Of a stretch of DNA of 64,000 nucleotides, positions 8,430-35,481 are shown piece after piece. Origin of the DNA: Pseudomonas sp. PSE14 (lineage in GTDB: Bacteria > Pseudomonadota > Gammaproteobacteria > Pseudomonadales > Pseudomonadaceae); NCBI RefSeq assembly GCF_029203285.1, contig NZ_CP115669.1, forward strand, positions 2,666,001-2,730,000, in the 5' to 3' direction. Position numbers and translations under genes: made by a program. Each line of letters opens with the position of its first letter. Within the stretch, counting starts at the first letter, position 1. A model generated the notes under the pieces. That model worked only from the letters and a program-made list of their open reading frames with translations, had not been told where the DNA came from and did no database searches.

Positions 8430-8444
8430 CGTTGGCTGTGCATT

Positions 8445-8522
8445 GTAGGAGCGAGCTTGCTCGCGAACCGCCCAGCTACAGAGTCGTCGGCTAGCACTGT
8501 TCGCGAGCAAGCTCGCTCCTAC
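8445..8522. repeat. REP inverted pair
   Basis: GTAGGAGCGAGCTTGCTCGC on the left and its reverse complement on the right, separated by about 30 bases, between two convergent genes. Each arm can itself fold (GAGCGAGC-TT-GCTCGC). Confidence 0.9.
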
Positions 8523-8536
8523 GAAAAGCAAAGCGA

Positions 8537-9841: not shown

Positions 9842-9842
9842 T

Positions 9843-11141
9843 TCATTGCTCCGAAGAGGGGGCGAAGGTCTTCTGCATGCCGCTCCAGCAGGCATCATAG
9901 TCGCGCTGCAGTTGCGGACAATCGAGGGCGAAGCGGCTGGGGCGCAGCACGCGGCCGGTCTCGAACATGAAGGCCATGGTGTGATCGATCTTGTGCGGTT
10001 TCAGGTCGGCGGCGATGGCCTGCCGGGTGGTGGCGTTGTCCGGACCGTGGGCGCTCATGCAGTTGTGCAGCGAGGCGCCGCCGGGGACGAAGCCGTCGGC
10101 CTTGGCGTCGTACACGCCCTGGATCAGACCCATGAATTCGTTCATCAGGTTGCGGTGGAACCACGGCGGACGGAAGGTGCTCTCGGCCACCATCCAGCGC
10201 GGCGGGAAGATCACGAAGTCCATGTTGGCCATGCCGTGGGTGTCGCTGGGCGAGGTGAGCACGGTGAAGATGGACGGGTCGGGGTGGTCGAAGCTCACCG
10301 TGCCGATGGTGTTGAAGCGGCGCAGGTCGTACTTGTAGGGCACGTTGTTGCCGTGCCAGGCGACCACGTCCAGCGGCGAATGGTCGAGGGTGGTGGCCCA
10401 GAGTTCGCCGAGGAATTTCTGCACCAGTTGCACCGGGCCTTCGACGTCCTCGTAATGCGCCACCGGGGTGAGGAAGTCGCGCGGGTTGGCCAGGCCGTTG
10501 CTGCCGATGGGACCGAGGTCGGGCAGGCGCAGGGCGGCGCCGTGGTTCTCCGCCACGTAGCCGGCGGCGGACGCTTCCAGCAGCTCGACGCGGAAGCGCA
10601 TGCCGCGCGGGATCACGGAGATCTCCAGCGGTTCGACTTCCAATACGCCCAGTTCGGTGACCAGTCGCAGGCGGCCGGCTTGCGGCACGATCAGCAGCTC
10701 GCCATCGGCGTTGAAGAAGGCCCGGCTCATGGAGCGGTTCGCGCGGTAGGCATAGACGCTGACGCCGCTGGTGGCGTCGGCCTCGGCGTTGGCGGCCATG
10801 CATAGCAGGCCGTCGACGAAGTCGGTAGGCTCCTGCGGCATCTCGAAACTGTTCCAGCGCAGGCGATTGGGCGTGACCGGGCCCAGGGCTGTGCCGGTGA
10901 TCTGCCGTTCCAGGCGCTCGTAGCGCGGGTGCGCGGCGGACGGACGGATGCGGTACAGCCAGGTGCGCCGGGCCTCGCTGCGCTGGACGGTGAAGGCGGT
11001 GCCCGAGAGCAGTTCGGCGTAGAGGCCGTAGGGGACGTGCTGCGGTGAGTTCTGCCCGACGGGCAATGCGTTGGGCAGGGCCTCGCTGGCGAATTCGTTG
11101 CCGAATCCGGACAGGTAGGCCGGGGCGCGGGAGGCAGTCAT
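9843..11141 (-). CDS. hmgA: Homogentisate 1,2-dioxygenase
   Basis: A 432-residue enzyme. The opening '[19 protein letters not shown]' is diagnostic. The iron ligands are visible in '[16 protein letters not shown]' (His and Glu) and '[10 protein letters not shown]' (His). It opens the homogentisate ring with O2 to give maleylacetoacetate, using non-haem Fe(II) in the cytoplasm. It is the first gene of an hmgA-fahA operon and divergent from the IclR regulator, with a palindromic operator in the shared promoter region. Confidence 0.95.
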
Positions 11142-18735: not shown

Positions 18736-20835
18736 CTAGAACCCACTCTCCCGCAACGCCACCGCCAGCAGCCGGGTAACACCTTCCCCCAGCCAACTGC
18801 GCCGCGCTCCATCGATCTGCAGGTGCCCCCGCGTCTCGTGCAGGTTCGGCGGAGCCGCATCGAGCTTCACCAGCACATGGAACAGCGCCGGGTTGGGCAC
18901 CAGCGCCTCGCCCTGGGCGTTGACGTTCAGCGGGCCGCCGTAACGCGAGGCGAGCATCGGTTGCTCCAGCTGGCTGACGCGGGTGGTGCCGATCAGCACT
19001 ACCTGGCCGTCGATGGCGCTCGGTACGCCTTCGGGGTAGAAGCGCACATGGCCGCCGTCGGTGAGGCGCTGCACCTCGTCCTGCTTGACGTAGGCGTCCA
19101 CCAGCCAGGAACTCGGGTCGACCAGCACGCCGATGGGCTCGCGGGTGTTGATCCACTGGCCGGCCTTCCATTCCGGGTTCACGTCCATCCAGCGGCCGTC
19201 GAAGGGTGCCTGCAGCGTGAGGCGGGCCATCTCGTTGCGGGCGGCGCGGGCTTGCTGGTATTCGACGCCCAGGCGCTGGCGGGTGACGGCTTCCTCGGAG
19301 AGCCCCGACGGGTCGGCGAGCATGCCGGCCAGACGGCCTTCGTAGCCTCGGATGCTGGCCTCGCTGCCGCGTACCTTGGCGGCAATGTCGGGCTCCTCCA
19401 TCACCGCCAGGGTCTCGCCCCTGGTTACTGCGCCGCCGGGGCGCACGTGGCGCAGCAGCGCAGGGAAGGGCGCGTAGACGTGCAACTGCTGCGCCGCGCG
19501 GGCCACGCCCATGGCGTGCACCTGGGTACGCCAGGGCACCGCGAGCAGGAGCAGCACCGCGGCGAGAATCCCCAGGAACACCACCTTGCGCCGCGACTTC
19601 ACTTCCGCGCGGCGCTCCCACCAGACCTTGAGTTCGCGCCACACGGGCTGAACGATGAACCAGCTGATTTCCACGGCGAACAGGAAGATCCCCAGCAGTT
19701 TGAAGAAGAAGTAGTAGACCGCCACGGCGATGCCGAGGAACAGCAGCAGGCGATAGACCCAGGTACCGAAGGCGAAGGCCACCAGCAGGCGGCGCTTGCC
19801 GGTGGGGAAGTGCTCCGGCCAGGGCTCGTCCAGCCCCAGCAGGTTGCGTCGCAGCGCGGTGCGGGCCAGGGCGCCGGCGCGTTCGTGCAGGTTGGGGAAG
19901 TCCAGCAGGTCGGAGAAGATGAAGTAGCCGTCGAAGCGCATGAACGGGCTGGCGTTCAGCGCCAGGGACAGCGCCCAGCTGGTGGTGGCGAGGTACAGCA
20001 GGGCATTGCGCAGCGGACCCGGATCGGCCAGCGCCCAGCCCAGCGTCGACAGTCCGGCCAGGCCCAGCTCGGTGACGATCCCCGCGCTGGCGATCGCCAG
20101 GCGCTGGCGGTTGCTGCGCAGCTTCCAGCTTTCCCCGGTGTCGGTGTAGAGCATCGGCCACATCACCACGAAGGCGACGCCCATGTGCGCCACCTTCAAT
20201 CCCAGCCGCGTCGCCACCAGGGCATGGCCCATCTCGTGCAGCGTCTTGGCCACCACCAGGGCGGCGGCGAAGCTGAGCAGGCCTTCGAAGGAGAAGGACT
20301 CCACCACGTCATGGGTGAAGGTGTCCCACTGGTGCGCCACCAGCACGATGCCGGCCAGGCTCAGGAGCAGCACCAGCAGCGCCACGTAGCGGTTGAACAG
20401 CCAGTCCAGGCTGCCGGCGATGGCGCGCAGGAAGCGCTGCGGGCGGATCAGCGGAATGCGGAAGAACAGGTAGTGGTGCAGCCACCACTTCCAGGTGGTC
20501 CACTGGTTGCCTTCGCTGCGGGCCTGCAGGCGTGCCAGGGCTTCGGGGCCCGAGCGCAGCAGTTGGTGGTGTTCGAGGAACTGGCGAAAGTCCAGCACCT
20601 GTTCGGCGTCGGGGTTGAGCGCGGTCTGCTCGGCGATCTGCTCGCTGATCTGCCGGGGTGTCTGCTCCCAGCGCAGCAGGCATTCGAACTCCAGCCAGCC
20701 GATGCGGTAGAAGCGGTTGAGCACGCTGTCCTGGATCACCCATACCGGCTCGCCGTCCGGGCCGGGGGCGGCTTCGGACAGGCGCAGGTCGTCGCGCAGC
20801 GGCGGGGTGGGCAGGTCTTCGACGGCGACGTCCAT
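18736..20835 (-). CDS. PqqD-like / M50 site-2 protease / HlyD fusion, membrane component of adhesin exporter
   Basis: A 699-residue protein. Residues about 20-100 resemble a PqqD-type wHTH domain ('VLNRFYRIGWLEFECLLRW ... ISEQIAEQT'). About 145-430 is a multi-pass M50 metalloprotease with H200-E-M-G-H204 and 'NASPFMRFDG' (D302) as third zinc ligand, so the active site looks complete. After a further helix near residue 405, about 430-690 is a HlyD-like periplasmic adaptor with 'YAPFPALLRHVRPGGAVTRGETLAVME'. Its start at 20835 overlaps the stop of the upstream gene (TGATG). It is the last gene of the five-gene block. I infer an inner-membrane export or processing unit for the giant surface protein. 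Confidence 0.78.
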   Translation of the reverse strand: MDVAVEDLPTPPLRDDLRLSEAAPGPDGEPVWVIQDSVLNRFYRIGWLEFECLLRWEQTPRQISEQIAEQTALNPDAEQVLDFRQFLEHHQLLRSGPEALARLQARSEGNQWTTWKWWLHHYLFFRIPLIRPQRFLRAIAGSLDWLFNRYVALLVLLLSLAGIVLVAHQWDTFTHDVVESFSFEGLLSFAAALVVAKTLHEMGHALVATRLGLKVAHMGVAFVVMWPMLYTDTGESWKLRSNRQRLAIASAGIVTELGLAGLSTLGWALADPGPLRNALLYLATTSWALSLALNASPFMRFDGYFIFSDLLDFPNLHERAGALARTALRRNLLGLDEPWPEHFPTGKRRLLVAFAFGTWVYRLLLFLGIAVAVYYFFFKLLGIFLFAVEISWFIVQPVWRELKVWWERRAEVKSRRKVVFLGILAAVLLLLAVPWRTQVHAMGVARAAQQLHVYAPFPALLRHVRPGGAVTRGETLAVMEEPDIAAKVRGSEASIRGYEGRLAGMLADPSGLSEEAVTRQRLGVEYQQARAARNEMARLTLQAPFDGRWMDVNPEWKAGQWINTREPIGVLVDPSSWLVDAYVKQDEVQRLTDGGHVRFYPEGVPSAIDGQVVLIGTTRVSQLEQPMLASRYGGPLNVNAQGEALVPNPALFHVLVKLDAAPPNLHETRGHLQIDGARRSWLGEGVTRLLAVALRESGF

Positions 20836-22175
20836 CACCAGCCCGTCCAGGCGCGCAGCGAGGCCAGCGGCCGGCGCAGCAGGTAGTAGCCGAGCACCAC
20901 GCGCTCGCCATAGAGCTTGGCCGTGCCGTGCAGGCCGAGGCGGGCGTGGGGCGGGGCGTTCTCGACGCTGGCCAGCAGACGGTAGGAGGCCACGCCTTCG
21001 TCGCTGGGCTTGGCCTGGTAGCTGGTTTCGAGGATGGCCCCGTGCAGCGGGTCGAGGGGGTAGGCGGTGAGGAACAGCGCGACTTTCGCCCCCGGCTCCA
21101 GGGCGATGGCGTCGGCCACCGGCAGCTGGATGCGCATGCCCGGTTCGCTCGGGTCGGCCACCTGGAGGATGCGTTCGCCGGTGACCACCGGCTTGCCCAG
21201 CCAGTCGTTGGGGTCGCTGTACACGGCGACGCCGGCGCGCGGCGAGAGCACCCGGGTGCGCGCCAGTTGTGCCTGCACGGCGGCCAGTTCGGCGCGGCGC
21301 TGGCGGGCGCGGCCATCGAGCACGGTCAGTTCGCTCTTGCTCTGCGGGTTGTCGAAGGCGCGCTGGCTGGCGGCCAGGAGTTCGGCGTCGGCTACCGCGA
21401 CTTCCTTGGCCAGCACGTCGGCGCGGCTGCGCAGGGTGGTTTCGTCGAGTTCGAACAAGGGCGTGCCGACGTCCACCGGCTGGTTGGGCCGCACCAGCAT
21501 CCGGGCGATCACCCCGTCGATGGGCGAGCTGATTGCCTGGGCGTTGCGCGAGACCACCTCGGCCGGCGCCAGGGCGGTCTGCCGTACCGGGACCAGCAGC
21601 AGCGCGCCGAGGGCGAGCGCGCCGATGAGCAGCTGGCGCTTGCTCGGCCGCCAGAAGCGCAGACGCGGGCGTGGACCGAAGGCGGCCCAGGCGTGCGCCC
21701 AGGTCTGCCAGATGCCTTGCAGCAGCGGTTGCAGGTTGCGCGCGGGGGCTTCGTCGAGGAGGAACAGCACCAGCCCCTGGCGTTGCCCGGCGCGGTCGTG
21801 CAGTGGCACGCACCAGAGCCCGGCGGGCCACCACTCGGCCCAGCCTTCGGCGATGTCCGGCGGCGGGTCGAGGGCCTCGCGGGCGAGCCAGGCCGGCGCG
21901 GCGTCGGGCAGTTGCGCGGCGATCCACTGGCTGGCGCGTTCCAGCCAGACCAGGTAGGGCGAGTCTTCCGTGGGCTTGGCCAGGCCGGAGACGGCCAGCA
22001 ACTCGTTGCGCGTGTCGTGGCAGGCGAACACCAGTGCCTGGTGGAAGCGCAGCAGCGGGAACAGATCGTTGGCGATGCTGAACGCCAGGGCGTTCAGCGA
22101 GTCGGCCGCCAGCGCCCGGTCGCGTACGTTGGCCAGGCTCAGCAGCAGCTGGGGTGGAGGCAGCAGCTCACTCAT
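20835..22175 (-). CDS. HlyD-family membrane fusion protein with GAF-like N-terminus
   Basis: A 446-residue protein. Residues 1-165 are soluble and GAF-like in pattern ('ADSLNALAFSIANDLFPLLRF', 'GLWCVPLHDRAGQRQGLVLF'). One transmembrane helix lies at about 181-197. The remainder is a HlyD-type adaptor with a lipoyl-like half motif 'SSPIDGVIARMLVRPNQPVD' and a coiled-coil stretch about 245-310. An N-terminal sensor-like domain in the cytoplasm is unusual for an adaptor. ATG 22175 overlaps the preceding stop by 8 bases, which indicates translational coupling. Confidence 0.75.
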   Translation of the reverse strand: MSELLPPPQLLLSLANVRDRALAADSLNALAFSIANDLFPLLRFHQALVFACHDTRNELLAVSGLAKPTEDSPYLVWLERASQWIAAQLPDAAPAWLAREALDPPPDIAEGWAEWWPAGLWCVPLHDRAGQRQGLVLFLLDEAPARNLQPLLQGIWQTWAHAWAAFGPRPRLRFWRPSKRQLLIGALALGALLLVPVRQTALAPAEVVSRNAQAISSPIDGVIARMLVRPNQPVDVGTPLFELDETTLRSRADVLAKEVAVADAELLAASQRAFDNPQSKSELTVLDGRARQRRAELAAVQAQLARTRVLSPRAGVAVYSDPNDWLGKPVVTGERILQVADPSEPGMRIQLPVADAIALEPGAKVALFLTAYPLDPLHGAILETSYQAKPSDEGVASYRLLASVENAPPHARLGLHGTAKLYGERVVLGYYLLRRPLASLRAWTGW

Positions 22176-22950
22176 GGCTTTCGGGGAAGCGCGCGACCCC
22201 ACTCATGCCGGCGATCAGTTCGGGGTAGCTGGCATCCAGCTTGGCCTCCAGTTCCACGGTCTGCGCTACGGCGTCGACCCGCGCGTTGATCGCGCTGACC
22301 TTGGCCGGGTAGAGCTTGCCGGTTTCGTGGATGTCCACCTGCAGCGGCATGCCCGGTTGCAGGCGCGGCAGCAGGGAGGAGGGCACGTTGAGGCGGACCT
22401 TCAGGGCGCCGTCGCTGACCAGGTCGAACAGCGGCGTGCCGGCGGAGACGGTCTGGTACGGCTTGACGTAGACCTTGGCGATGCGCCCGGAGAAGGGCGC
22501 GTCGACCAGGCAGTAGCCGGCCTGGGCGCGGGCCAGGGTGAGGGCGCCATCGGCCTTTTCCACCTCGGTGTTGGCCATGGCCACTTCCAGATCGCCCACG
22601 GCGTCGAGCTTGCGCAGGTTGCGCTTGGCCGCGAGGTTGGCGCGGGCCATGTTCAGCTCGGCGGCGGCGACCTTGGCGCGGGCGTTCACTTCGGTGCAGC
22701 CCAGCTGGGCGAGCTGCGCGTCCTTGGCAACCTTCTCGCCGAGGCTGGCCTTGAGCGCGCCGAGGGTGCCGTTCATCTGCGCGGAGAGGGTGGTTTCCAG
22801 GTCGGAGACCAGCAGCACGCGGATCGCCCCCGGATCGTTGTCCGGGGTCGTCGGCAGGGTGGCGCTGGCGTCGGCAGCCAGAGCCGGCTGCAGGAACATC
22901 AGGCAGAGCGGGAGGAACAGGTACGACGATTTACTGCGCAGGTGCGGCAT
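22168..22950 (-). CDS. Periplasmic adaptor (HlyD/RND-MFP type) with signal peptide
   Basis: A 260-residue protein with a signal peptide (hydrophobic core 'YLFLPLCLMFLQPALA', likely cut after ALA). The mature part has a short coiled coil with 'LSAQMNGTLGALKASLGEKV' and 'VDAPFSGRIAKVYVKPYQTV', the lipoyl-domain signature of membrane fusion proteins. ATG 22950 lies 20 bases inside the end of the TolC-like gene. It probably bridges the inner-membrane parts and the TolC-like channel. Confidence 0.8.
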   Translation of the reverse strand: MPHLRSKSSYLFLPLCLMFLQPALAADASATLPTTPDNDPGAIRVLLVSDLETTLSAQMNGTLGALKASLGEKVAKDAQLAQLGCTEVNARAKVAAAELNMARANLAAKRNLRKLDAVGDLEVAMANTEVEKADGALTLARAQAGYCLVDAPFSGRIAKVYVKPYQTVSAGTPLFDLVSDGALKVRLNVPSSLLPRLQPGMPLQVDIHETGKLYPAKVSAINARVDAVAQTVELEAKLDASYPELIAGMSGVARFPESHE

Positions 22951-24481
22951 TGGCGCTTCCTTCCTGACTACCAAGGCCACTGCTGGCCAGAAGGTTGGTG
23001 CTGGATTGCTGTTCGAGGGTGCGCTGGATTTCCCGTGCGAGGGTCTTCACGTCGTGGTTCTCGATTTCCTTGGGCATCACTTCGAAGCCCACCGAGTTGT
23101 ACAGCCGGCCCCAGGCGGCCTGGGCGTCGGAGTAGGCGGCCTCCCGTTGGTAGCGCGAGAGCAGGTAGCGGCCTTCGGCGCGGATCAGCTCCAGCTCGCT
23201 GCCCAGGGCGGCGCCACGGGCGGACTGGGCGTAGTCGAGCAGGCTCTTGTCAACCCGCAGGCTTTCGTCGGCGAATTCCACCTCCTGGCGCGCCAGTTGG
23301 TAGCGCAGCAGGCCGACGCGGACCTGGGTGAGGATGGCCATGGACAGCGCGGTGCGGCGCATGTCGTCGGTCTTCTCCTGGCTCTCCTCGGCGGCCTTGA
23401 TGTCCGGGTACTGCAGCAGGCGCAGCAGGTTCATCGAAACCTGGACGCCGGTCTGGTTCCAGTCGTTGTTGTAGAGGTACTTGTTGGAGTCGTACTCGTA
23501 GCCGTAGTTGAAGCTGATGTTGGGCCACAGCTGCGCCTTGGCGATCTTCAGATCGTTCATGTCGACGCGCTTGCGGTACCACTCTTCCATGATCTCCGGG
23601 CGGTGCTCCAGGGACAGGCGCTCCAGCTGGTCGGTGTTGTTGGTCACCAGCGGCAGCGGCTGCTCGCTGACGTCGGCGAGCACCATCTTGGTGTTGGGCG
23701 GCAGCGACATCAGGGCGGCCAGTTCGGCGCGGGCGAACTCCAGGTCCTGGCGGCGCACGGTGAGCATGTACACCGAGTCGAGCAGGGCGCGCTGGTAGGC
23801 GAGGATATCCTGGCGCGGCAGCAGGCCCTTGCCCTCGGCCTCGCGGGCGGAGGTCAGGGCGCGGTGGGTGCGCATCAGCAGGCCGTCCACTTCCGGCAGC
23901 AGGCGCTGGGCGCCCAGGGCGCGCCAGTAGGCGTTGCGCACGTCCTGCAGGACGTTCTGCGCGACCTTCTCGCGGCGCTCTTCGGCCATCAGCATCTGGT
24001 CGTTCTTCTGCTGGGTGCGGTAGTAGGCGACGCCGAAGTCCAGCAGGCTCCACGACAGGCCGAGGCTGTACAGCGTGCGGTAGCGTTCCTCGGAGGTGGA
24101 GGGCCGCAAGCTGACCTGGCGGTCCTCGATGCCGATGGAGGTGCCGCCTGAGTCATTGTTGCGCCCGGCGTAGCCGGCGGAGGCCACCACGCGCGGCAGC
24201 ATCTCGTGACTGGTGACGTCGCGCAGGTCGGAGGCCAGCGCGCTTTCCAGCAGCTTGAGGCGATAGTCGAGGTTGTATTTCAACGCGCGCGCCGAGGCTT
24301 CGTAGAAGGTGATCGGCCCGTTCACCGGCTCCTGTTCCTTGTACATCCGCGCCTGGTCTTCGATGACCCGCTGGCGCATCTCGTCCTGGGTGTAGGGCTT
24401 GGGCTCGAACTGCGAGCAGGCGGCCAGCAGTACGGTACTGGCGATCGTGGCGCTCAGGCATTTCAGGGCGTATGCGGGCAT
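22931..24481 (-). CDS. TolC-family outer membrane lipoprotein
   Basis: A 516-residue outer membrane efflux protein. The N-terminus has a lipobox LAAC (Cys 22) after a hydrophobic stretch, so it is a lipoprotein. The body has the two long alpha-helical hairpin repeats typical of TolC ('SARALKYNLDYRLKLLESAL', 'QDILAYQRALLDSVYMLTV', 'QVRVGLLRYQLARQEVEFAD'). I take ATG 24481 because AAGGA lies 8 bases upstream and the signal length is then normal. An alternative ATG at 24523 overlaps the adhesin stop. It should form the exit duct for the giant protein. Confidence 0.85.
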   Translation of the reverse strand: MPAYALKCLSATIASTVLLAACSQFEPKPYTQDEMRQRVIEDQARMYKEQEPVNGPITFYEASARALKYNLDYRLKLLESALASDLRDVTSHEMLPRVVASAGYAGRNNDSGGTSIGIEDRQVSLRPSTSEERYRTLYSLGLSWSLLDFGVAYYRTQQKNDQMLMAEERREKVAQNVLQDVRNAYWRALGAQRLLPEVDGLLMRTHRALTSAREAEGKGLLPRQDILAYQRALLDSVYMLTVRRQDLEFARAELAALMSLPPNTKMVLADVSEQPLPLVTNNTDQLERLSLEHRPEIMEEWYRKRVDMNDLKIAKAQLWPNISFNYGYEYDSNKYLYNNDWNQTGVQVSMNLLRLLQYPDIKAAEESQEKTDDMRRTALSMAILTQVRVGLLRYQLARQEVEFADESLRVDKSLLDYAQSARGAALGSELELIRAEGRYLLSRYQREAAYSDAQAAWGRLYNSVGFEVMPKEIENHDVKTLAREIQRTLEQQSSTNLLASSGLGSQEGSANAAPAQ

Positions 24482-24519
24482 GTTCAGTCCTTGGTCCTTC
24501 CGTGATTTTTGCGTACGCA

Positions 24520-27500
24520 TCATGGGTTGCCGCTCCGGCGCTGGGCGGCGTCGCGCAGCTGGGCTCGGAAGCCCCGTGCGGTCTGCGCGGTCTTGTCGGA
24601 TTTGGCCACCATGTCGCCGGGCAGGGGCGCCCACAGCGACGGATCGGGGAGCAGGCCGTCGGCGCTCAGGCTTGTGACGCCATGGCGGCCCTCCACCCAG
24701 CGCTTGTCCAGGTCGCTGGCGCGCCGGCTTTCTCCCACGGCGCGGGCGACGAACTGGCCCTTGACCTGGCCGAGCTGGGCGCCGATGGATTGGCTCTCGA
24801 TTTCCGGCGTGGCGAAGATATCGATGTTGCTGCCGTCAGCGCCCCAGGCGGACAGCGACAGGTTGTGGTCGATGCGCTCCACCACCGGTTGCACGAAGAT
24901 CGCCGGGTCGAAGCCCAATGGCGGCTCGTGCGGGCGACCGTCCTCGGCGAAGAGGCCGACATAGGGGCCCGGCGGGATGTAGGGCGTCGAGATGTCGAGG
25001 GTAATGGTCAGCTGCGCCTGATCGGTGAGCCCGGTCAGGTCGCTGATGGTGTAGGTGAAGTAGTCCTTGAGGACTTGCCCGAGGCCGGCGGCGGCCAGCA
25101 CTTCGCGGTTGCTCAGGTCGATGGTGTAGGTGTAGCTGCCATCGGCATTGAGCACGAGGGTGCCATAGCGGCCGGCGATGGGCTGGCCGACGACACCGGC
25201 GGTGCCGCTGCCGTTTTCCTCGCCGGTACGGATGCCGGTGACGGTGAGCTGGTCGCCGCCATCGACGTCGCTGTCGTTGGGCAGCACGTTGCCGGTCGCC
25301 TGCGGCGCGGGAGTTTCGTCGCTGGCGAAGTTGTTGTCGTCGCGCGCGGTCGGGTTGTCGTCTGCGCCCCGCACGGTCACGGTCAGGCGCGCTTCCGAGG
25401 TGGCTCCGGCAGTGTCGTGCATGCGGTAGGTGAAGACTTCCGTGAGGGTTTCGCCTGCCGTGCGCAGAGCCTGCACGGTAGGGTTGTCGTTGTCCACCCG
25501 GTACTCGAAGCTGCCGTCGGCGTTGATCACCAGCTTGCCGTACAGGCCCTGCAGCATGCTGCCGGCGGCGACCGTGGCGCCATTCTGGCTGGTGTAGTGC
25601 ACGACGCTCTTTGTCTCGCCGTACTGCACGCCGTCGACGTCGGTGTCGTTGTCCAGCACGTTGCCGCGCGGATCGATCCCCGGAGTGCCGTTGTTCACGC
25701 CGCCAGCCTCGACGGCGATCGCGGTGTCGTCGTTGGCGATTGGGGTGTCGTTGCGCCCGTCGATGGTGATGGTCAGCAGACCGGGAGTGGCGCCGCCCCA
25801 GATGTCGGCACCCAGGTAGGTGAATCTGTCCTGGATAATCTGGCCGCTGGCGCGCAGGGCTTCGACTTCGGGCAGGGAGTTGTCCAGCTGATAGCTCCAG
25901 CTGCCGTCATCGTTCAGCGTCAGGGTTCCGTACTGGCCGCGCAGGCTCTGGCCGGGCGCGCTGGCATCGGCAGGCAGCGGGCGGTCTCCGGTCCAGAACG
26001 ACACCACGTACATCACATCCTGGGGAATCGTGGTGATGGTGTCCGGGTCGGTATCGTTGGCCAGCACGTTGCCGGAGGGATTGCTGCCCGGCGCGTTGTT
26101 ATGCAGGCCACCGTCCTCCACGGCGGTGCCGAAGTCCGGCTCCGTCACGGGCGGGTCGTTGCGTCCGCGAATGAGAATGATGAGGGTGGCCTGATCGTTG
26201 AGGTTGCCGTCATCGGTGACCTGGTAGGTGAACTCCTCAATGGCGAAGGCCAGCGGCCCGAGGGAGACGATAGTGGGGTTGGTGCTGTCGACGAAGTACT
26301 GGTAGCGGCCGTCGGCGTTGATCACCAGGGTGCCGAAGGCGCCCTGGATGGTCTGCGGGATGCCCGGCACCACCGGAACCGTGTTCACCTGCGAGCCTTC
26401 CGGCCCCTTGGCGATGGCGGTGACGACCAGGTGATCGCCGGCATCGACGTCGGTATCGGCGCCGATGCCGGCGAAAATCCCGGTCAGACCGGCGATGACG
26501 TTGCCGGTGGGGTTGCGCCCGCCACTACCGTCGAGGTTGGCCACGGCGTAGTTGATGTCGTCGTTGGCCACCGGGGCGTCGTAGCGGCCCTCGATGGTGA
26601 TGGTCAGTTGGGCGATGGAGGTGGCTCCATCGGTGTCGTGCATGCGGTAGGTGAAGACTTCCACCAGGCTGTCGCCGAGCTTCAGCGCCTGCACCGCGGC
26701 GAGGCTGTCATTCACTGTGTAGGTGTAGGTGCCGTTGGCATTGAGCACCAAAGTGCCGTAGGCGCCGGCCACCACGCCACCGCTGGTGCTCAGGTCGACC
26801 AGTGCGCCGCCGGCATTGCGGTCGCCGAGGCGCGCAGCGTCGACCACCTTGGTTTCGCCATAAGCTGCGCCGTCCACGTCGAGATCGTTGGGCAGTACAT
26901 TGCCGGCAGCGGGGGCGCCGGGGGTGGTGTTGAGTGTGCCGCCGGCTTCGATGGCGCGGCCCGTATCGTCCTGGGCGATGGGGATATCGTTCTGCCCATG
27001 GACGATGACGGTGAAGGTGCGGGTGATGGACTTGCCGTTGCCGTCGCTGACGGTATAGGTGAAGACCTCTGTGAGAGTGTCGTTATAGGTACGCAGGGAC
27101 TGCACGGCCGGGTCGAGGTTATTGACCACGAAGCGGTAGCTGCCATCGGCGTTGAGCAGCAGCACGCCATGGTTGCCGGCCAGGTCTGCGCCCACGGTGC
27201 CGTTGGCACCGGTGGGGCTGACCACGGCGGTGATGGTGAGGACATCGCCGTCCGGATCGGTGTAGGAGCCGCGGACGCTGCCCGTCGGGTCCAGCCCCGG
27301 GACGTTGTTGAGCAGGCCGCCGGCTTCGGTCGCATGGACCACCACCGGCTGCACGATGGGTGGATCATTCACGCCGGTCACGGTGATCACCAGTTGCGCC
27401 TGGTCGGTCAGGCCGCCGGAGTCGTGGATGCGGTAGGTGAAGACCACATCCAGGGTCTGGTTGGCGGTCAGCGCACGGATGGCCGGATCGGCGCTGTTGA

Positions 27501-30500
27501 CCACGAAGAGATAGGTGCCGTCGGCGCTGAGGGTGAGCTGGCCGAAGTTGCCGCTGATGATCGTACCGTTGGCCAGCCGGGCCACGGTGCCGCTGATGGA
27601 TCCTGGCACGCCGTCGTTGACGTTGTTGGGGATGAAGGTGCCGGCGCTTTCCAGGCCGCTGCGCACGCCATCCACTTTCAACTTGGAGGCCGTGGGCTGG
27701 TCGAGGTTGTCGACATCGGTATCGGCACCGACCCCGCCGAGCCCCCCGGTGATCACGTTGCCACTGGCGTTGACTGGAGCCGGGCTGTTGTCGCTGGCGC
27801 CGGCGGTGGCGGTGTTGTGATCGTCCACCGCCACCGGCGCGTCGTTGGCGCCTTGGATGGTAATGGTCAGGGTGGCAATGGCGCTCAGGCCGCCCTTGTC
27901 GGTGACCTGGTAGGTGAATCGTTCGGGCAGGGTCTGGCCGGGTGAAAGCGCCTGCACCACGGGGTTGCTGTTGTCCACAACGTAGCGGTAGGAGCCGTCA
28001 GCATTGATGGTCAGGGTGCCGTAGAGGACCTGCAGGGTTGCCGGCGCGCCTGGCGCCACCGGGAAGATGCTTCCGCCGCCGATGCCGTCGTAGCGCACCA
28101 GGCTGACGGCCTTGGTCTCGCCGTAGGTCGTGGAGTCCACGTCGCTGTCGTTGAGCAGCACGTTGCCGATGGCGTCCGAGCCGGGGCTGCCGTTGTTGGT
28201 GCCACCGGCTTCGACGGCGGTACCCGCGTCGTTGCGCGCAACCGGAGTGTCGTTGGCGCCGTGGATGTCGATGGTGAGGGACGTGGAACTGCTCAGCCCG
28301 CCGGTGTCGGTGACGAAGTAGCCGAAGGATTCGCGCAGTACGTCGCCCGCGCTGCGTAGCGCCTGGACCGCGGCGTTGGTGTTGTCGACCACGTACTGGA
28401 AGCCGCCCGTGGCCGTGATGTACAGCGTGCCGTAGCGGCCAGCGAGGGGGGTTACGCCTGTAGCCGCCACCGTCGTGGATCCACCGATGGAGTTCTCCAC
28501 GCGGGTGACCCTCAGTACGTCGCCGTTGGTGGCGATGTCCACGTCGGTATCGTTATCCAGCACGTTGCCGGTGGGGTCGACGCCGGGGTCGGCATTGTTC
28601 AGGCCGCCGGCCTCCACCGCGACGGCGAGGTCGGGATGGGCGATGGGCGCATCATTCACCGGGTCGATGATGATGTTCATTTCATCGGTATCGCTCAATG
28701 CATCAGCAGGGTTCTGTCCGGGGATGCCATCCCCGCTCGTGGGATGGTCGCCGAAGTTGCCCTGGTCATTGGTCACCATTTTCAGCGTTTCGGTGTTACG
28801 GAAAGTGTTGAAGTCCTGGTTGCCCTTGTAATAGAGCTGGCCGAGCAGCACGTTGATCTGGGCGAGAGTGCCACGCAGCACCAGGGTGTTGCTGGCGCCG
28901 GTCGGAGGGGACGCGTCGGGCGCAGGCGTGGTGGCGCTGGTCCAGAGTACGCCGTGGAGCACCGAGAGGGTGACGGTGAGTTCGCCGTTGCCCGCGTCCA
29001 CGTCGCTGATGGCCAGGCCGCCGATGTGCAGCACGGTGTCTTCCTGGCCATGTTGCGGGGCGAAGGTGTTCACCGGAGCTTCGTTGAGGTGCACGTAGCC
29101 GAAGTTCGCCTGGCCGGTCGGGCCGTCGCTGGCAGTGCCGCCATCGAGGGTCAGTTGGACCCGGTTGAAGGTGTTGCCGGCTCCGTCGGTATCGATGCGA
29201 ACCTTGAGTGTGTTGCCCGGATCACCGGCCACCGGGTTGCTGACCTGCGCCGCGACGTCCACTCGGTACAGGCCGCTGGGCAGGATGCTGAATACATACT
29301 GGCCGTTGGCATCGGTGGTGGTGGTCGCCAGTTGCGCGTCGTCGCTCGTGCCGAACAGGCCGTCCGCGCCGGCCCAGGTAAGGGTGACGGTCTGACCGGC
29401 CAGGCCGGGGCCGTCCGGCGTCGTGCTGCTGGTGGCCGAGCCGGTGTCGTCCCAGAGGGTACCGCGCACCACGCCGAAGGCGATGCCGACACTCTTCACG
29501 TAGTTGTTCAGCACGCTGTCATCCGGCCCCGGTCCATCCTGCCCGGTCCGCTCGCCGGTGGCGGTGCTGGCCGTGCCGACCGCCGAATCGCCCCAGCCGG
29601 TGAAACTCTGCGGCAGGCTGGTCCAGGTCAGCACCGCGGAACTGGCGGCATTGTTGGCGATGGGAGTGTCCGGCACGGTGACGCTGTAGCGGAAGCTGAC
29701 CTTGTCGCCGACGTTGAGTGACGCGAAGTCCACGCCGATGCCGTTGGCCGGGTTGGAGTCGATGTTCAGCGTCAGGCCGGCAAGGGTCGCTGCGCCACCG
29801 GGAAGGAAATCGCCCAGGCCATAGGTCACGGTGGTACCGGCGGCCGTGGTGATAGTGAGGCTGATGAACTGGTAGCCGCTACCGTTGGGCAGCTTGTCCT
29901 GCAGGTGGACATCGTAGGCGGTCACGTTGCCGTTCTGCTGGAAGCCGACTTCCAGCGTGGCATTGGTGGTGTTGTCAGCGTTCAGGGTCAGGCCGACCAC
30001 CGACTTGGTGGGATCACTGAAACCGGGTTCCACCACCTTCTCGAAGATCGTGTCGCTCTTGCCGCGGTCGACGCCGCCATTCAGGCCGACATGCTCGAAC
30101 GCGGTCATCCCGAGCGCCGGGGCGGTGCTCTGATTGCTGGTGACGTTGGCGACGCGCACGTTGAATTCCAGGATCACGCCTTCGATGTCGCCGTCGTTCA
30201 CCTCGGTGTTGGTCAGGTTGCCCAGGCTGAAGGTGATGGTCTGGCTACCGTTGGCGTTGGTTACGATCTGCAGCCGGCCGCTGTTGACGTTGAATACGCC
30301 GGTGGGCTTGTCGCCGGAGAGGTCGGGGCGGATCGGTAGCGATACATCGCTGTTCTGGTTGCCGAACATGGTTAGCGAGCCGCTGCTGATCAGGTTGGTG
30401 GCGTCCGTGGTGAGGCCGCCGCCGGTGGAGCCCAGCGCAATGAGGATGTTGTTGAGGTCGGCGGGAATGAACTCGAGCCCGGGGGCCAGTTCGATGCGGA

Positions 30501-33500
30501 TCTGGTAGTTCGGGTTGTCGCCGGTGGGGACGACGACCGCCACGCGGTAGCGGATGATCTCGCCGACCACCACAGTTTCCTGCAGGCCCGAAGTATCGGT
30601 GGTGCCCGATGAGTTGGTCGCCGGCGGCGTGGCATCGACCCCACCGACGCGGGACACCTGGATGCCATTGGTGACCGGGATCAGCAGCGAGTTGGCCACG
30701 CGGTAGTCGTTGAGCACCCCGGAGTTGAGCACGCCGTCATCGCCGCCGCGCTCGCCGGCCTGGGTATCGGTGACATTGCTGGTGCCATCGAGGCTGGTCC
30801 AGCGCACCACGACGTTGTTCGGGATAACCGCCTGGCCAGCCGCCGTGGCGTTCACCACGCCCGACAGGGTAATGACGATATTGCCGCCATTGGCGATATC
30901 GATGTTGGCGCCGTTGGCGGTGACCAGCTGGCCATTCTGGATGATGAAGTCCACGCCGCCGTTATTGGTGGCGCCGCCGTTGTAGACCGTGCCGGTGATC
31001 ACGATGTTGTCCATCTGCGTGGGCAGTATGTTCAGCAGGCTGAGATCGAAGGCATTGGTGCCGGACGTGTTGCTGATGGTGATGGTGAAGGTGACCGTGT
31101 CGCCTTCGTCGAAGCCGCCGTAGGTGGGCGTGGAAGTGACTTGCTGGCTCACTGTCAGGGTGGGCTCGACGATGGTCACCGAGGGCTGCTGCGGGCTGGC
31201 GACCGTGCGGTCCACGGCCGTGGCGCCGTTGGGCGTATCGCCATCGGGGTCGCTGTAGGTCAGCTGCGCGCCGTTGTTCAGGGTGACGCCCTGCTGGTTG
31301 CCCTGCACGTTGCTCGCCACCAGCACCAGGCGGATGACGAAGGCATTGTTGCCGACGTTGTTGTCGGCGTTGGCGCCGGCGGCACTGAACACCAGTTGCA
31401 GATCGACACCATCGCTGCCGTCGGGAGAAGACGGAACAACGGTGACGGTACCGTTGAAATTGTCTGTGAGCGCGAGGCTGAACGGCTCCCCGTTAATGGA
31501 GGCCCTATTGACGATGACCTGGTAGCCCGCTCCGTTGAAAGCCGTGGTATCCAGGCGCAGGCCCGGTGGGATCAGGTCGGAAAGACGCAGGTTGGCGGTG
31601 GAGCCTTCAGGCAGGGTGACGACAATGTCATAGGTCATCTTCTCGCCGATCACCAGGTTACTGTCGGTGGTGTGGCTGGCGCTGGAGTCGTCGGCGGTCA
31701 GGCTGCCGTCCTTGTAGACCTTGGTGATGGTCGGCGCGGCGACCTGCTGGTTGGCCAGGTCGACCAGGTCGGTGGGGGTGAAGTCCTGGCCGCCGTTGAC
31801 GCTCGCATAGTTGGTCAGTGCGGCGCTGCTCTGCAGGCTGCTCGACGCGAGGATGGCGTTGTTTACCGTGGCATCGTAGGTGATCACCACCAGGTTGCGG
31901 CCGGCAGCATCGTTGCCGTCGGCGGCGTTGGCGCGGCCGGCGAGGAAGGTCGCCTGGCCGTTGGCATCGAGGAAGGTGATGGTGTTGCCGCTGACGCTGT
32001 AATCCACCCCGGCAGTCAGCTTTGTACCGTCGCCCCGGTAGATCTGCAGGTTGGCCAGGCTCAGGCTGCCGCCGACGAAGGTTACGCCGGCGGGCAGGTT
32101 AATGCTCGTGGTGACATCGTAGGCGCCGCCACCGCCAGTGTTCTTGATCGCGGTGGCCAGGCGCAGGGTATCGCCGCCATCGATGCCGCTGACGTTGCCG
32201 TCGACCGCGGCGAGATCGGTGATGCTGCCGTTGAACGGCCTGGTGCCGGTCTGGTCGGTCGGGAGCCAGTTACCAGTGGTTCCGGTGACGGTTCCGTTGC
32301 TGCTGGAGACCACACCGTGCTTGATATCCAGCACTGGTTCGGCGACCGACTCGATGACCGCCACGTCCGATGAGATCAGTACTGTCTTGTCGATGGTGGT
32401 GGTCTGGCTGGACTGTGCCAGCACATCCAGCTCGCGCTGGTCGGCGAAGGGCTGGTCGCCTACGCGCATGGTGAACTGCACCTGCACCCGGCCGCCGTTC
32501 AGGCCGCCGGAAACATAGTTGCCGAAGTTGAAAATGATCGAGTTGCCCGGGCCGGTGCGTACGCTGTCGGGCACATCGCCGATGTTGTTGCCGGCGCCGA
32601 AGGTCCATTGGCCCACGCCGGTACCCTGGGTCCAGTCGGTGACCTGCGAGGCGAGGAGCGGCAGGGGCAGGTAGGCGGTGAGGGTGAAGTTCTCGTAGTC
32701 GGCCACCAGCAGGTCATAGGTGATCGTGAAGGTCACCACGTCGCCGGGGCGCAGCTCGCCGTTGCCCGGCGGGGCGCCGCCGTTCACCTGGGTGAGCTGG
32801 ATGTCGATGTTGGACGTCTTGATGGTGCTGGTGGTGCTGGAGCCGTCGGTCTGCTCGCCGCCGATGTTCAGCGAGTCGCGCAGCACGGTGGCGTCCACCA
32901 GCGCATTGTTGCTGACGCTGTCGCCTTCGTTGAGCTGGTCGTGGGGCGGGTGGTCGGAGGTGTAGGTGGTGTCGATGGTCGCGTCATAGATGATGGACAT
33001 CCGCGTGGCGCCTTCCTGGGCGTCGCCGTCCCACTGGTCACCGAACAGCGCATAGAGCCCCGGCCCCTGGATGGCGGCGGCAATGGACTGGGCGATGTCG
33101 AAGACCAGCGTGGTGCTGCCGTCGGCGTTCACCGTGGCGGTGTAGATCACTGGGATGACCTGCGACGCGCCGTGCTGCTGGATGACGATGCTCGGCGGGT
33201 TGGTGGCGGAGAAGGTCTGGCCGTCGCTGAGCTGGTCGGTGACGGTGAAGCTGCCCTGGCCGAGGATGTTCTTGCCGAAGGCGTAGAAGTCGGAGATGGC
33301 CACGTCCATGGTGTAGCGCAGGGTGTCGCCGGGTGTGATGCCGGTGGTGCCGACGTCGTTCTGCAGGTTCACCGTCTTGAGCAGGGTGATGGATTTGGCG
33401 ACGAAGGTGACACCCGCGCCGTTGCCGGTGACGGTGAAGGGGTAGCCGTCCGGGTCGCTCGGGCGATCACGCACGTCCAGCGGGTTCCAGTCGCCGCTCA

Positions 33501-35214
33501 CGGTGGCGGTACCGAAGGTGATGGTGCGTGGATTGCCCGTGGCAGGGTCGAGCACCGGTCGCCCGGCGGCGTCGATCTCCGGCACGTAGAAACCGACCGT
33601 GGTGGTGCTGGCTGCGCTCAGGGTGTCGTAGTGGATGCTGTAGCTGGCGACGAAGACGTTGGGGTTGTTCAGTGCCGCGGCGATCAGCGTCGGGTTGGTC
33701 AGCACGGTGCCGTCGTGCAGGGTGATGGAGGTCAGGGTGCCGCCGGCTCCAGGCGTGATGGAGCTGACATGGACCTGGTCGGGCACCGTCTGGGTGACCG
33801 TCACGTTGGTCAGGGTCTGGCCGGGCGCCGGGGTCACGGTGACCGTCTCGGTGCGCGTGAAGTTCGGACCGGTGACGGTCTCGCCCTCGGGCATGTCCAC
33901 CGTCTGGGTGACCGATAGCAGGGTCGGGGTGACCACGAAGCTGTGCAGTGCGGCTTCCACCAGGCTCGGGTCCTGCGTGGGGTTGTTCAGCGAGTCGTTG
34001 CCGTACTCGAAACCGCCGCGGGCGTTGATGGTGAGGTTCGGCGCACCGTCGGAGTAGATGGTGTCGGCCAGGTTGCTCAGTTGCGCGGTGACCTGGATGT
34101 CGATGGCCGGCTGGCCACTGGTGACGCTGCCATAGGGCAGTTGCAGCACGATCATCTGGTCGCCGGGCTTCATGCCTACGCTGGCGGCGTTGATCACCAG
34201 CGCATTGCCATTGGCGTCCTTGGCGAATGGATGGGTGGCATTGCCGTTGGCGTCGAAGATGACAGGGGTGAACCTCACCACCTGGCCCAGGTAGGTGGCG
34301 GAAACGAAGGTGGCGCCATCATTGCCGTCACGGCCGGTGGCCGGCATGAACAGGTCGATGTAGGGGGCATAGCCGACCTGGGTGGACGGGTTGCTGAAGA
34401 TCACGTCGAAGGTGAAGGTATCGCCCAGGCGCACCGTCGAGCCGCCGCTGCCCATGGCTACAGTGGGGCTGGCATTGGCCAGCAGGCCCTGGAAGTCCGT
34501 CAGGGTGTCCGCGCCCAGGGCGATGGCCTTGTCCAGGTCGCCGTTGCGCACTTCCAGGTTCCAGTCACCCCCCGCGCTGCTGGCCCCGGTGGCATTGCTG
34601 GAGGCGCCGACGTCGGCTCCGGTCCAGCGGGCCAGCTCGTTGACCAGGGCCTGGCCGGCGCTGCCGGCGCCCACGTCGCAGCCGTAGAGCTGGATGTCCG
34701 CGCCGGGGCTGAGTTCGCTGCGCCAGGCGCTCAGGCGTTCGCCGAGCTGGTCGACGGTCTGCGCGGTGAAGGTCTGGTTGCCCAGGGTGAACTGGCCGGT
34801 GGCGCCATGGGAGAAGACCTGGATGGAGTCCACCTGGCCCAGTTGCGCCAGGGCATTGCTGATGGCGGCGATGGCGTCCTGTCCGGCGTCGACCACCAGC
34901 GCCGTGCTGCCAACCGGTAGGTTGGCCGCCAGTTGATCGCGGTTTTCCAGGCGGGCATCGATCACCACCAGGTTGCGCGGGGCCGGCGCGGGCGCTGCGG
35001 CCTGGGCGCGAGCCTCCACGGCGGTGGCGGGCGGGGTGCTGTCTTTGGCTTCGGTGGCCTGGGAGTCGTGGTGCTGCTGGTCGACCGCCGCCGCGGCGGC
35101 GCCGTCGAAGAGAATTCGCTGCTCCAGTGCCAGAGCGTGGGTGTGGGGGCGAAGAAGGAATGCGGCGCGCGCCTTGCCCTGATTATCCATTTCAGTACCC
35201 ATCGGATCGGTCAT
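24520..35214 (-). CDS. Giant LEPR-XLL / DUF4347 / VCBS-repeat surface protein (3564 aa)
   Basis: Residues 24-40 hold an LEPR-XLL-type motif (LEQRILFDGA), an N-terminal signature of very large exported proteins. Residues about 81-245 are DUF4347, with SHG (H136) and YGC (C179). About 250-1900 are DUF11-like beta repeats ('GDTVTFTITISNTSGTNAFD' and relatives). About 1910-2030 is an SdrD-B-like domain ('VRGTLWDDTG ... LFGTSDDAQLATTTTDANGQ'). About 2040-2180 is cadherin-like. About 2185-3415 are nine VCBS repeats, each opening with an NDxP-type motif and containing 'G-N-V-L-x-N-D-x-D-V-D'. The last ~145 residues carry no RTX nonapeptides. It is probably a secreted or cell-surface adhesin for biofilm or surface attachment. 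It heads the five-gene export block, all on one strand with overlaps or very short gaps. Confidence 0.85.
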   Translation of the reverse strand: MTDPMGTEMDNQGKARAAFLLRPHTHALALEQRILFDGAAAAAVDQQHHDSQATEAKDSTPPATAVEARAQAAAPAPAPRNLVVIDARLENRDQLAANLPVGSTALVVDAGQDAIAAISNALAQLGQVDSIQVFSHGATGQFTLGNQTFTAQTVDQLGERLSAWRSELSPGADIQLYGCDVGAGSAGQALVNELARWTGADVGASSNATGASSAGGDWNLEVRNGDLDKAIALGADTLTDFQGLLANASPTVAMGSGGSTVRLGDTFTFDVIFSNPSTQVGYAPYIDLFMPATGRDGNDGATFVSATYLGQVVRFTPVIFDANGNATHPFAKDANGNALVINAASVGMKPGDQMIVLQLPYGSVTSGQPAIDIQVTAQLSNLADTIYSDGAPNLTINARGGFEYGNDSLNNPTQDPSLVEAALHSFVVTPTLLSVTQTVDMPEGETVTGPNFTRTETVTVTPAPGQTLTNVTVTQTVPDQVHVSSITPGAGGTLTSITLHDGTVLTNPTLIAAALNNPNVFVASYSIHYDTLSAASTTTVGFYVPEIDAAGRPVLDPATGNPRTITFGTATVSGDWNPLDVRDRPSDPDGYPFTVTGNGAGVTFVAKSITLLKTVNLQNDVGTTGITPGDTLRYTMDVAISDFYAFGKNILGQGSFTVTDQLSDGQTFSATNPPSIVIQQHGASQVIPVIYTATVNADGSTTLVFDIAQSIAAAIQGPGLYALFGDQWDGDAQEGATRMSIIYDATIDTTYTSDHPPHDQLNEGDSVSNNALVDATVLRDSLNIGGEQTDGSSTTSTIKTSNIDIQLTQVNGGAPPGNGELRPGDVVTFTITYDLLVADYENFTLTAYLPLPLLASQVTDWTQGTGVGQWTFGAGNNIGDVPDSVRTGPGNSIIFNFGNYVSGGLNGGRVQVQFTMRVGDQPFADQRELDVLAQSSQTTTIDKTVLISSDVAVIESVAEPVLDIKHGVVSSSNGTVTGTTGNWLPTDQTGTRPFNGSITDLAAVDGNVSGIDGGDTLRLATAIKNTGGGGAYDVTTSINLPAGVTFVGGSLSLANLQIYRGDGTKLTAGVDYSVSGNTITFLDANGQATFLAGRANAADGNDAAGRNLVVITYDATVNNAILASSSLQSSAALTNYASVNGGQDFTPTDLVDLANQQVAAPTITKVYKDGSLTADDSSASHTTDSNLVIGEKMTYDIVVTLPEGSTANLRLSDLIPPGLRLDTTAFNGAGYQVIVNRASINGEPFSLALTDNFNGTVTVVPSSPDGSDGVDLQLVFSAAGANADNNVGNNAFVIRLVLVASNVQGNQQGVTLNNGAQLTYSDPDGDTPNGATAVDRTVASPQQPSVTIVEPTLTVSQQVTSTPTYGGFDEGDTVTFTITISNTSGTNAFDLSLLNILPTQMDNIVITGTVYNGGATNNGGVDFIIQNGQLVTANGANIDIANGGNIVITLSGVVNATAAGQAVIPNNVVVRWTSLDGTSNVTDTQAGERGGDDGVLNSGVLNDYRVANSLLIPVTNGIQVSRVGGVDATPPATNSSGTTDTSGLQETVVVGEIIRYRVAVVVPTGDNPNYQIRIELAPGLEFIPADLNNILIALGSTGGGLTTDATNLISSGSLTMFGNQNSDVSLPIRPDLSGDKPTGVFNVNSGRLQIVTNANGSQTITFSLGNLTNTEVNDGDIEGVILEFNVRVANVTSNQSTAPALGMTAFEHVGLNGGVDRGKSDTIFEKVVEPGFSDPTKSVVGLTLNADNTTNATLEVGFQQNGNVTAYDVHLQDKLPNGSGYQFISLTITTAAGTTVTYGLGDFLPGGAATLAGLTLNIDSNPANGIGVDFASLNVGDKVSFRYSVTVPDTPIANNAASSAVLTWTSLPQSFTGWGDSAVGTASTATGERTGQDGPGPDDSVLNNYVKSVGIAFGVVRGTLWDDTGSATSSTTPDGPGLAGQTVTLTWAGADGLFGTSDDAQLATTTTDANGQYVFSILPSGLYRVDVAAQVSNPVAGDPGNTLKVRIDTDGAGNTFNRVQLTLDGGTASDGPTGQANFGYVHLNEAPVNTFAPQHGQEDTVLHIGGLAISDVDAGNGELTVTLSVLHGVLWTSATTPAPDASPPTGASNTLVLRGTLAQINVLLGQLYYKGNQDFNTFRNTETLKMVTNDQGNFGDHPTSGDGIPGQNPADALSDTDEMNIIIDPVNDAPIAHPDLAVAVEAGGLNNADPGVDPTGNVLDNDTDVDIATNGDVLRVTRVENSIGGSTTVAATGVTPLAGRYGTLYITATGGFQYVVDNTNAAVQALRSAGDVLRESFGYFVTDTGGLSSSTSLTIDIHGANDTPVARNDAGTAVEAGGTNNGSPGSDAIGNVLLNDSDVDSTTYGETKAVSLVRYDGIGGGSIFPVAPGAPATLQVLYGTLTINADGSYRYVVDNSNPVVQALSPGQTLPERFTYQVTDKGGLSAIATLTITIQGANDAPVAVDDHNTATAGASDNSPAPVNASGNVITGGLGGVGADTDVDNLDQPTASKLKVDGVRSGLESAGTFIPNNVNDGVPGSISGTVARLANGTIISGNFGQLTLSADGTYLFVVNSADPAIRALTANQTLDVVFTYRIHDSGGLTDQAQLVITVTGVNDPPIVQPVVVHATEAGGLLNNVPGLDPTGSVRGSYTDPDGDVLTITAVVSPTGANGTVGADLAGNHGVLLLNADGSYRFVVNNLDPAVQSLRTYNDTLTEVFTYTVSDGNGKSITRTFTVIVHGQNDIPIAQDDTGRAIEAGGTLNTTPGAPAAGNVLPNDLDVDGAAYGETKVVDAARLGDRNAGGALVDLSTSGGVVAGAYGTLVLNANGTYTYTVNDSLAAVQALKLGDSLVEVFTYRMHDTDGATSIAQLTITIEGRYDAPVANDDINYAVANLDGSGGRNPTGNVIAGLTGIFAGIGADTDVDAGDHLVVTAIAKGPEGSQVNTVPVVPGIPQTIQGAFGTLVINADGRYQYFVDSTNPTIVSLGPLAFAIEEFTYQVTDDGNLNDQATLIILIRGRNDPPVTEPDFGTAVEDGGLHNNAPGSNPSGNVLANDTDPDTITTIPQDVMYVVSFWTGDRPLPADASAPGQSLRGQYGTLTLNDDGSWSYQLDNSLPEVEALRASGQIIQDRFTYLGADIWGGATPGLLTITIDGRNDTPIANDDTAIAVEAGGVNNGTPGIDPRGNVLDNDTDVDGVQYGETKSVVHYTSQNGATVAAGSMLQGLYGKLVINADGSFEYRVDNDNPTVQALRTAGETLTEVFTYRMHDTAGATSEARLTVTVRGADDNPTARDDNNFASDETPAPQATGNVLPNDSDVDGGDQLTVTGIRTGEENGSGTAGVVGQPIAGRYGTLVLNADGSYTYTIDLSNREVLAAAGLGQVLKDYFTYTISDLTGLTDQAQLTITLDISTPYIPPGPYVGLFAEDGRPHEPPLGFDPAIFVQPVVERIDHNLSLSAWGADGSNIDIFATPEIESQSIGAQLGQVKGQFVARAVGESRRASDLDKRWVEGRHGVTSLSADGLLPDPSLWAPLPGDMVAKSDKTAQTARGFRAQLRDAAQRRSGNP

Positions 35215-35481
35215 TGATCACGGCTTGGAACGCAATCTCAAGCACATACGAGCGGAAAGCTTAGCCACAGATTCTCGATAGCGAATAGGAATATGCGTGT
35301 GCATTTCGCGACATTCGGATAGTCAGTTTCTGACTGATCAGACAAACGGATGGGATGAAGCGCTGCGCCGGGTTCCCGCTTTCCAGCCAATTCCCGAATG
35401 GCTACGCTTGCGCTTCAGGGAGCGGCCAACGTCCCAGTGAACAAGAGGCAGGCCGAATTCAGGGCAAGGGGAGAGCGGGGA
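35215..35481. promoter_or_regulatory. Divergent promoter region between adhesin and mscS
   Basis: This is the only upstream space available to the adhesin block. It contains the hairpin GTCAG-TTT-CTGAC (35322-35334) directly followed by the palindrome CTGATCAG (35333-35340), a possible operator. No clear -35/-10 pair could be fixed by eye. Confidence 0.45.

Follow-up and report, generated by a model that had tools for sequence, protein, structure and literature searches.

How does a giant surface protein leave the cell when the exporter genes lying next to it include no ATPase? This question is raised by a stretch of 64,000 nucleotides (the window) of the genome of Pseudomonas sp. PSE14, a single contig of 5.98 Mb (NZ_CP115669.1, positions 2,666,001 to 2,730,000), in which five minus-strand genes, neighbours overlapping by 1-20 bases, encode a giant protein, a TolC-type outer membrane protein, two HlyD-type adaptors (HlyD1 and HlyD2) and a fusion of a predicted RRE/PqqD-like domain with M50 protease and HlyD domains (the M50 protein). 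The initial annotation, made from the sequence alone, had described these five genes; the coordinates of their open reading frames (ORFs) confirm place, strand and overlaps, and Pfam recovers a giant without RTX repeats, the TolC-type protein, two HlyD adaptors and the M50-HlyD fusion. No type I ATP-binding cassette (ABC) ATPase is encoded in the operon, and none over a type I secretion system (T1SS) cut-off was found within 600 kb of it. We consider it fairly probable that the operon is dedicated to exporting and maturing the giant, independently of a type I ABC ATPase: the RRE-like domain would bind a leader, the M50 site would cleave and the adaptors and TolC-type channel would form the conduit.

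Linkage of leader-bearing giants with the M50 protein

Across 193 related genomes, PSE14 included, the M50 protein (counted at a score of at least 100 bits) is present in 62 of the 65 genomes positive for DUF4347, a domain of the giant, versus 17 of the 128 negative ones, and its gene lies within 60 kb of 75 of the 92 DUF4347 hits, in line with the anticipated co-occurrence of M50-HlyD fusions and LEPR-type giants. The order TolC-HlyD1-HlyD2-M50, with gaps below 700 bases, is kept in 70 of 80 loci from named genomes, and loci with the module span the alpha-, beta- and gammaproteobacteria. The ten non-standard loci comprise three that are cut (L031, L082, L083), two with larger gaps before HlyD1 (L058, L080), one from a Rhodocyclaceae metagenome-assembled genome (L049) with about 5 kb (4746-10001) between HlyD2 and M50 where most loci have almost none, one with HlyD2 and M50 in which TolC and HlyD1 were not found (L067), and three (L075, L077, L078) in which M50 precedes the giant and separate HlyD1 and HlyD2 were not found in the stretch examined. 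An alternative order, HlyD1-HlyD2-M50-giant-TolC, occurs in G038 and G063, and the giant of G053 is placed between HlyD1 and HlyD2. When ORFs of at least 80 aa at 100 loci were clustered, the 49 loci marked as diverse contained HlyD/M50 in 46 cases, the giant in 36 and TolC in 32, the next real family being a response regulator at 6 loci; two ORF clusters (12 and 11 lineages) were discarded as opposite-strand shadow ORFs of the HlyD and TolC genes. At the level of the phylum, the M50 profile matched 88 of 398 sampled genomes, in 45 of 212 genera (E 1e-40).

At its N-terminus the giant has a leader whose consensus we write LExRx[ML][FL]DGA. The search pattern [LM]ExRxx[FLY][DS] was found in all 61 DUF4347 N-termini near an M50 gene and in 0.05% of shuffles of the same stretches, a count that is not independent, the pattern having been drawn up on the loci where it was counted; 78 N-termini were read for the motif, 14 of the 92 hits being left unread. 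Seventeen of those read have no M50 gene nearby. The motif is present in 6 of them, each from a genome with an M50 gene at another place; a further 2 are truncated by contig ends, 1 is the second domain of a motif-bearing ORF and 3 are partial or weak hits (G160, G180, G055). Five clear DUF4347 proteins are without the motif (G188, G165, G173, G123, G154), and three of these genomes have no M50 match of at least 100 bits. Flanks were also examined in 16 of the 17 M50 genomes without DUF4347 (all but G177). Motif-bearing giants were found in four of them (G053, G090, G094, G183), so that what the giants have in common is the leader and not DUF4347; apart from four distant carriers considered below, the remaining genomes have one side cut by a contig end, or the start of the giant lies outside the stretch examined.

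The LEPR-XLL model NF012209 comes from others (NCBI). Applied to six N-termini, it scored those of the giants near M50 genes in G174 (35.4 bits) and G183 (30.2 bits; loci L141 and L230) above its curated cut-off of 17 and those of G038 (14.3) and the window (13.8) just under it, and two gave no match; run against the PSE14 genome at E 0.001, it returned no match. The name LEPR-XLL used in the initial annotation is thus right in kind, as the motif of the window giant stands in the same register as in LEPR-XLL proteins, with a score below the curated cut-off.

The M50 protein and its possible roles

The M50 domain (PF02163) of the fusion scores 31.8 bits, slightly above the cut-off of 27.2, and the protein shares 92-94% identity with its counterparts in Pseudomonas nitroreducens and near relatives. 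The HEMGH and NASPFMRFDG motifs are intact, as had been noticed, and their zinc-site residues (H200, E201, H204 and D302) are identical in all 60 aligned homologues. The PqqD domain named in the initial annotation is supported by the predicted structure, a three-strand, three-helix RRE/PqqD fold; no Pfam or NCBIfam model detects it, and Pfam gave no match to this region even at E 10. In HlyD2, a predicted GAF-fold domain (residues about 1-168; no Pfam match even at E 10) is followed by a hydrophobic segment and a MacA-like adaptor, an arrangement that hints at possible gating of export by a small ligand. Among the matches listed for the fusion and HlyD2 models, those of Foldseek were adaptor proteins, and the RRE and GAF matches came from a second aligner. 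Pfam finds HlyD_3 in both adaptors and in the fusion, and the HlyD-type adaptor and the TolC-type channel (PF13437 and PF02321) score above cut-off; with TIGR01843 and TIGR01844, the models for type I systems, the window proteins stay under the cut-offs. HlyD1 has a hydrophobic N-terminus resembling a signal peptide by hydropathy, and the TolC-type protein (Pfam OEP) a lipobox-like LAAC near its N-terminus, read by eye.

In the route that we favour, the RRE-like domain of the M50 protein, which would face the cytoplasm in the membrane topology we assume, would bind the leader, as RRE domains bind the leaders of ribosomally synthesized and post-translationally modified peptides (RiPPs). The M50 site would then cleave at the leader or directly after it, and the adaptor part of this protein, together with HlyD2 and HlyD1, would connect the inner membrane to the TolC-type channel. 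Candidates for the driving force and the passage of the inner membrane are the M50 protein, a general translocase and the membrane potential. This recognition idea is sharper than that of the initial annotation, because the fusion has an RRE-like domain and the giant a conserved leader. The initial annotation had considered that the M50 protein replaces the ATPase module or processes the LEPR-XLL signal. It may be the translocase, but a role as leader receptor and protease would account for the data just as well.

The RRE/PqqD domains of lasso-peptide and other RiPP systems differ from the present one in that it is fused to an M50-HlyD membrane protein, and in that its leader partner is one we infer from gene linkage only. 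The epipeptide and daptide M50 proteases (EpeP/YydH; NF041824, NF058609) share the intramembrane M50 core. Both models match all 60 aligned homologues, the daptide protease model NF041824 being the closest in NCBIfam to the window protein (165.2 bits, cut-off 300); however, the window protein is below both curated cut-offs, is fused to RRE and HlyD domains, and has a giant protein instead of a peptide as its linked partner. According to passages of PMC10885120, the M50 proteases TglG, TmoG and EpeP act in RiPP maturation, and EpeP is thought to cleave and export the epipeptide, its deletion not fully abolishing production; a passage of PMC7614699 assigns the neighbouring ABC transporter to immunity. 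EpeP is a published precedent for an M50 protein doing more than cutting.

The same likeness to maturation proteases, together with the invariance of the protease site, would also suit an M50 protein that is only a leader peptidase or a release or retention factor, with Sec/YidC or another channel moving the giant and the HlyD and TolC parts serving the outer step. We regard this as rather unlikely. The N-terminus of the window giant reaches a maximal hydropathy of 1.4 over 12 residues and has no strongly hydrophobic segment, versus 2.1 for HlyD1, which argues against the Sec route. Moreover, the leader seems to stand in for a Sec signal, because the DUF4347 protein of G165, with neither the motif nor an M50 gene close by, clearly has a Sec-like N-terminus; those of the motif-less G173 and G123 proteins are not separable in hydropathy from that of the window giant.

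ATPases in carriers of the module

The initial annotation had named an ATPase encoded elsewhere as the alternative, that is, ordinary type I secretion with a shared ABC ATPase. Such a supply is possible in PSE14, because five T1SS ATPases over curated cut-offs (three LssB-, one HlyB- and one PrtD-type) are encoded in this genome, the nearest more than 600 kb away. It fails, however, as a general explanation. With T1SS ATPase queries, 100 related loci (1.94 Mb) gave 7 ABC hits, in 5 loci and of differing sizes and places; in relatives the cluster thus does not regularly include a type I ABC ATPase, which supports the initial annotation. In the relatives, LssB-type ATPases were sought with TIGR03375 at E 1e-120, then PrtD- and HlyB-type ones at curated cut-offs. 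A first count of 13 of 79 M50 carriers without a T1SS ATPase proved too high: no HlyB-type ATPase over cut-off was found in these 13 TIGR03375-negative carriers, and a PrtD-type one was found in five (G033, G055, G063, G159, G160). No LssB-, HlyB- or PrtD-type ATPase was thus detected in 8 of the 79 (G038, G042, G053, G083, G131, G133, G135, G174), seven of which are 96-100% complete and G174 89%. Furthermore, 6 of 51 distant carriers (G385, G195, G237, G250, G272, G323), those new among the 88 profile-positive genomes, with completeness of 95% or more and contamination of 5% or less, had no TIGR03375 match at E 1e-96. This model alone was used for them, at a limit chosen so that PrtD-type hits (340-365 bits) count as present; since 7 of 14 control genomes also match at this limit, other exporters are caught too, and the 45 of 51 scored as present are an upper bound. 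All five genes, including the leader-bearing giant, are present in the ATPase-negative genomes G038, G042, G053, G131, G250 and G385.

The giant itself has no RTX family at E 0.01 in the Pfam and NCBIfam scans; RTX repeats are usual, not universal, in type I substrates. LapA/LapEBC type I secretion of giant adhesins has in common with the module a giant repeat protein, HlyD-type adaptors, a TolC-type channel and the lack of a clear Sec signal. In contrast, the module has no ABC ATPase in the cluster, and none was detected genome-wide in several carriers; it has an N-terminal leader and an M50-RRE fusion, and is without RTX repeats. Taken together, we judge a shared ATPase to be an improbable explanation.

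Several points nevertheless weigh against the ATPase-independent module that we favour, besides the dependence of the leader count on its own loci. T1SS ATPases are commoner in M50 carriers (66 of 79 versus 54 of 114 genomes, TIGR03375 at E 1e-120), an enrichment that also speaks for a shared ATPase and that genome size or lineage may explain. The LEPR-XLL motif may also sit on type I substrates: a passage of PMC10868602 reports a Vibrio giant that combines an N-terminal LEPR-XLL with C-terminal RTX and serralysin domains, a case that likewise speaks for a shared ATPase. Four of the 14 ATPase-negative genomes (G133, G135, G237, G323) have distant M50 relatives only (145-324 bits), and no giant was seen in the flanks read of the distant M50 carriers G120, G127, G146 and G167. 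That the operon exports a small peptide beside a giant gene present by chance is hardly credible: its M50 and RRE parts resemble RiPP machinery, but the giant is linked across many genera, in variable order and constant company, and no recurrent precursor-peptide family was seen among ORFs of at least 80 aa, shorter ones not having been clustered.

Features of the locus and meaning of the module

The features are collected in Table 1. For the M50 gene, a listed ORF of 1063 aa is an upstream extension of the same frame and was set aside in favour of the ATG at 20835.

Table 1. Genes and sequence features of the module (positions in the window)
Feature	Position	Strand	Basis
Giant surface protein, 3564 aa	24520..35214	-	ORF; Pfam and NCBIfam scans
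Leader motif LEQRILFDGA, residues 30-39, variant of LEPR-XLL	35098..35127	-	NF012209 13.8 bits, in register
DUF4347 domain, residues 82-245	34480..34971	-	PF14252 161 bits, cut-off 24.6
Best of nine cadherin-like/VCBS repeat stretches, residues 3275-3363	25126..25392	-	PF17803, TIGR01965
C-terminal motif FRAQL, residues 3549-3553	24556..24570	-	Second conserved signature of the giants
TolC/OEP-type outer membrane protein	22931..24523	-	PF02321 136 bits; 4-base overlap with giant
HlyD1 periplasmic adaptor	22168..22950	-	PF13437, PF16576; 20-base overlap with TolC-type gene
HlyD2	20835..22175	-	8-base overlap with HlyD1
RRE-M50-HlyD fusion, 699 aa, ATG at 20835	18736..20835	-	1-base overlap with HlyD2
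RRE/PqqD-like domain, residues 9-96 of fusion	20548..20811	-	Predicted fold
HEMGH zinc motif, residues 200-204	20224..20238	-	H200, E201, H204 in 60/60 aligned homologues
NASPFMRFDG, residues 294-303, probable third zinc ligand D302	19927..19956	-	D302 in 60/60 homologues
HlyD/MacA-like adaptor domain of fusion, about residues 433-680	18796..19539	-	HlyD_3 in fusion (Pfam)

The giant, which is probably an adhesin, consists of the leader, DUF4347, an isopeptide/DUF11-type region and VCBS/cadherin-like repeats, with Pfam matches to DUF4347, Cadherin_4 and Big_9. The BapA/Bap/LapF model NF045619 gives 345 bits (cut-off 180), a sum over nine repeat stretches, the best of which covers only positions 95-203 of the 458 of the profile, whose C-terminal region is also a criterion. 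Of 76 giants, 72 have a C-terminal [FL]xxQ[LVIMF] within their last 60 residues; among shuffles the rate is 8.3%, and 233 of 2634 internal windows match. Four ORFs taken for beta-barrel proteins (L013, L020, L024, L036) had been removed beforehand, many of the 76 are closely related and, at a chance rate of about 8%, a few of the 72 may be chance. In DUF4347, H136 is conserved in 75 of 75 and C179 in 76 of 76 sequences with a letter at that position. We take these to be possibly a caspase-like His/Cys pair, a likeness to caspase-type peptidases that would allow self-processing of the giant; this nature of the domain is something we infer, since solved structures gave only a weak match, to 9qpe_G (E 0.046), an entry itself named DUF4347. 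In one relative (G142:C1:650544-659177), two DUF4347 matches about 8 kb apart apparently share a single open frame of 4156 aa.

Sulfotransferase-family genes stand just before DUF4347 giants in several genomes (L146 15627-16490, L137 4974-5810, L149 7738-8574), the Pfam label resting on the L146 gene and the other two looking alike; such a neighbour is also found in G123, which has no M50 match. Small proteins with a phage tail-collar domain are repeatedly found beside DUF4347 giants (L136 11167-12346, L137 6835-7383, L128 2507-3100, L148 11306-11851), labelled by Pfam on one L136 protein, the others looking alike. In the window, an MscS-type channel gene (35398-37113) diverges from the giant across an intergenic region of 183 bases. 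Genes for a DNA polymerase III alpha-type protein, an impB/mucB/samB-family protein, a DEAD_2 helicase and a FAN1-like nuclease (48515-58597) apparently serve DNA repair and are unrelated to the module.

The five-gene module is widespread and, as it appears, undescribed. A literature search, in which bioRxiv was not covered and subscription journals only sparsely, found no description of it, and in the literature passages LEPR-XLL (PMC10868602), like DUF4347, is mentioned only in passing. Its parts are known individually; their combination and the link to the leader appear new. More tentatively, and with some doubt, it may be a distinct Gram-negative system in which the RRE-guided M50-HlyD protein would be leader receptor, protease and core of an inner-membrane gate for giants with a LEPR leader, without any ABC ATPase, giving the orphan LEPR-XLL motif its export machine. 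With the M50 profile in 88 of 398 genomes of the phylum, export by such modules may be a common route for giant surface proteins; current annotations split the module into separate efflux and protease genes. The M50 fusion is a candidate receptor for the LEPR-XLL motif, and the module makes it testable whether an ABC ATPase is indispensable whenever a giant protein is exported by a tripartite system. If our reading is true, leader recognition by RRE domains would cover, besides small peptides, proteins that are thousands of residues long.
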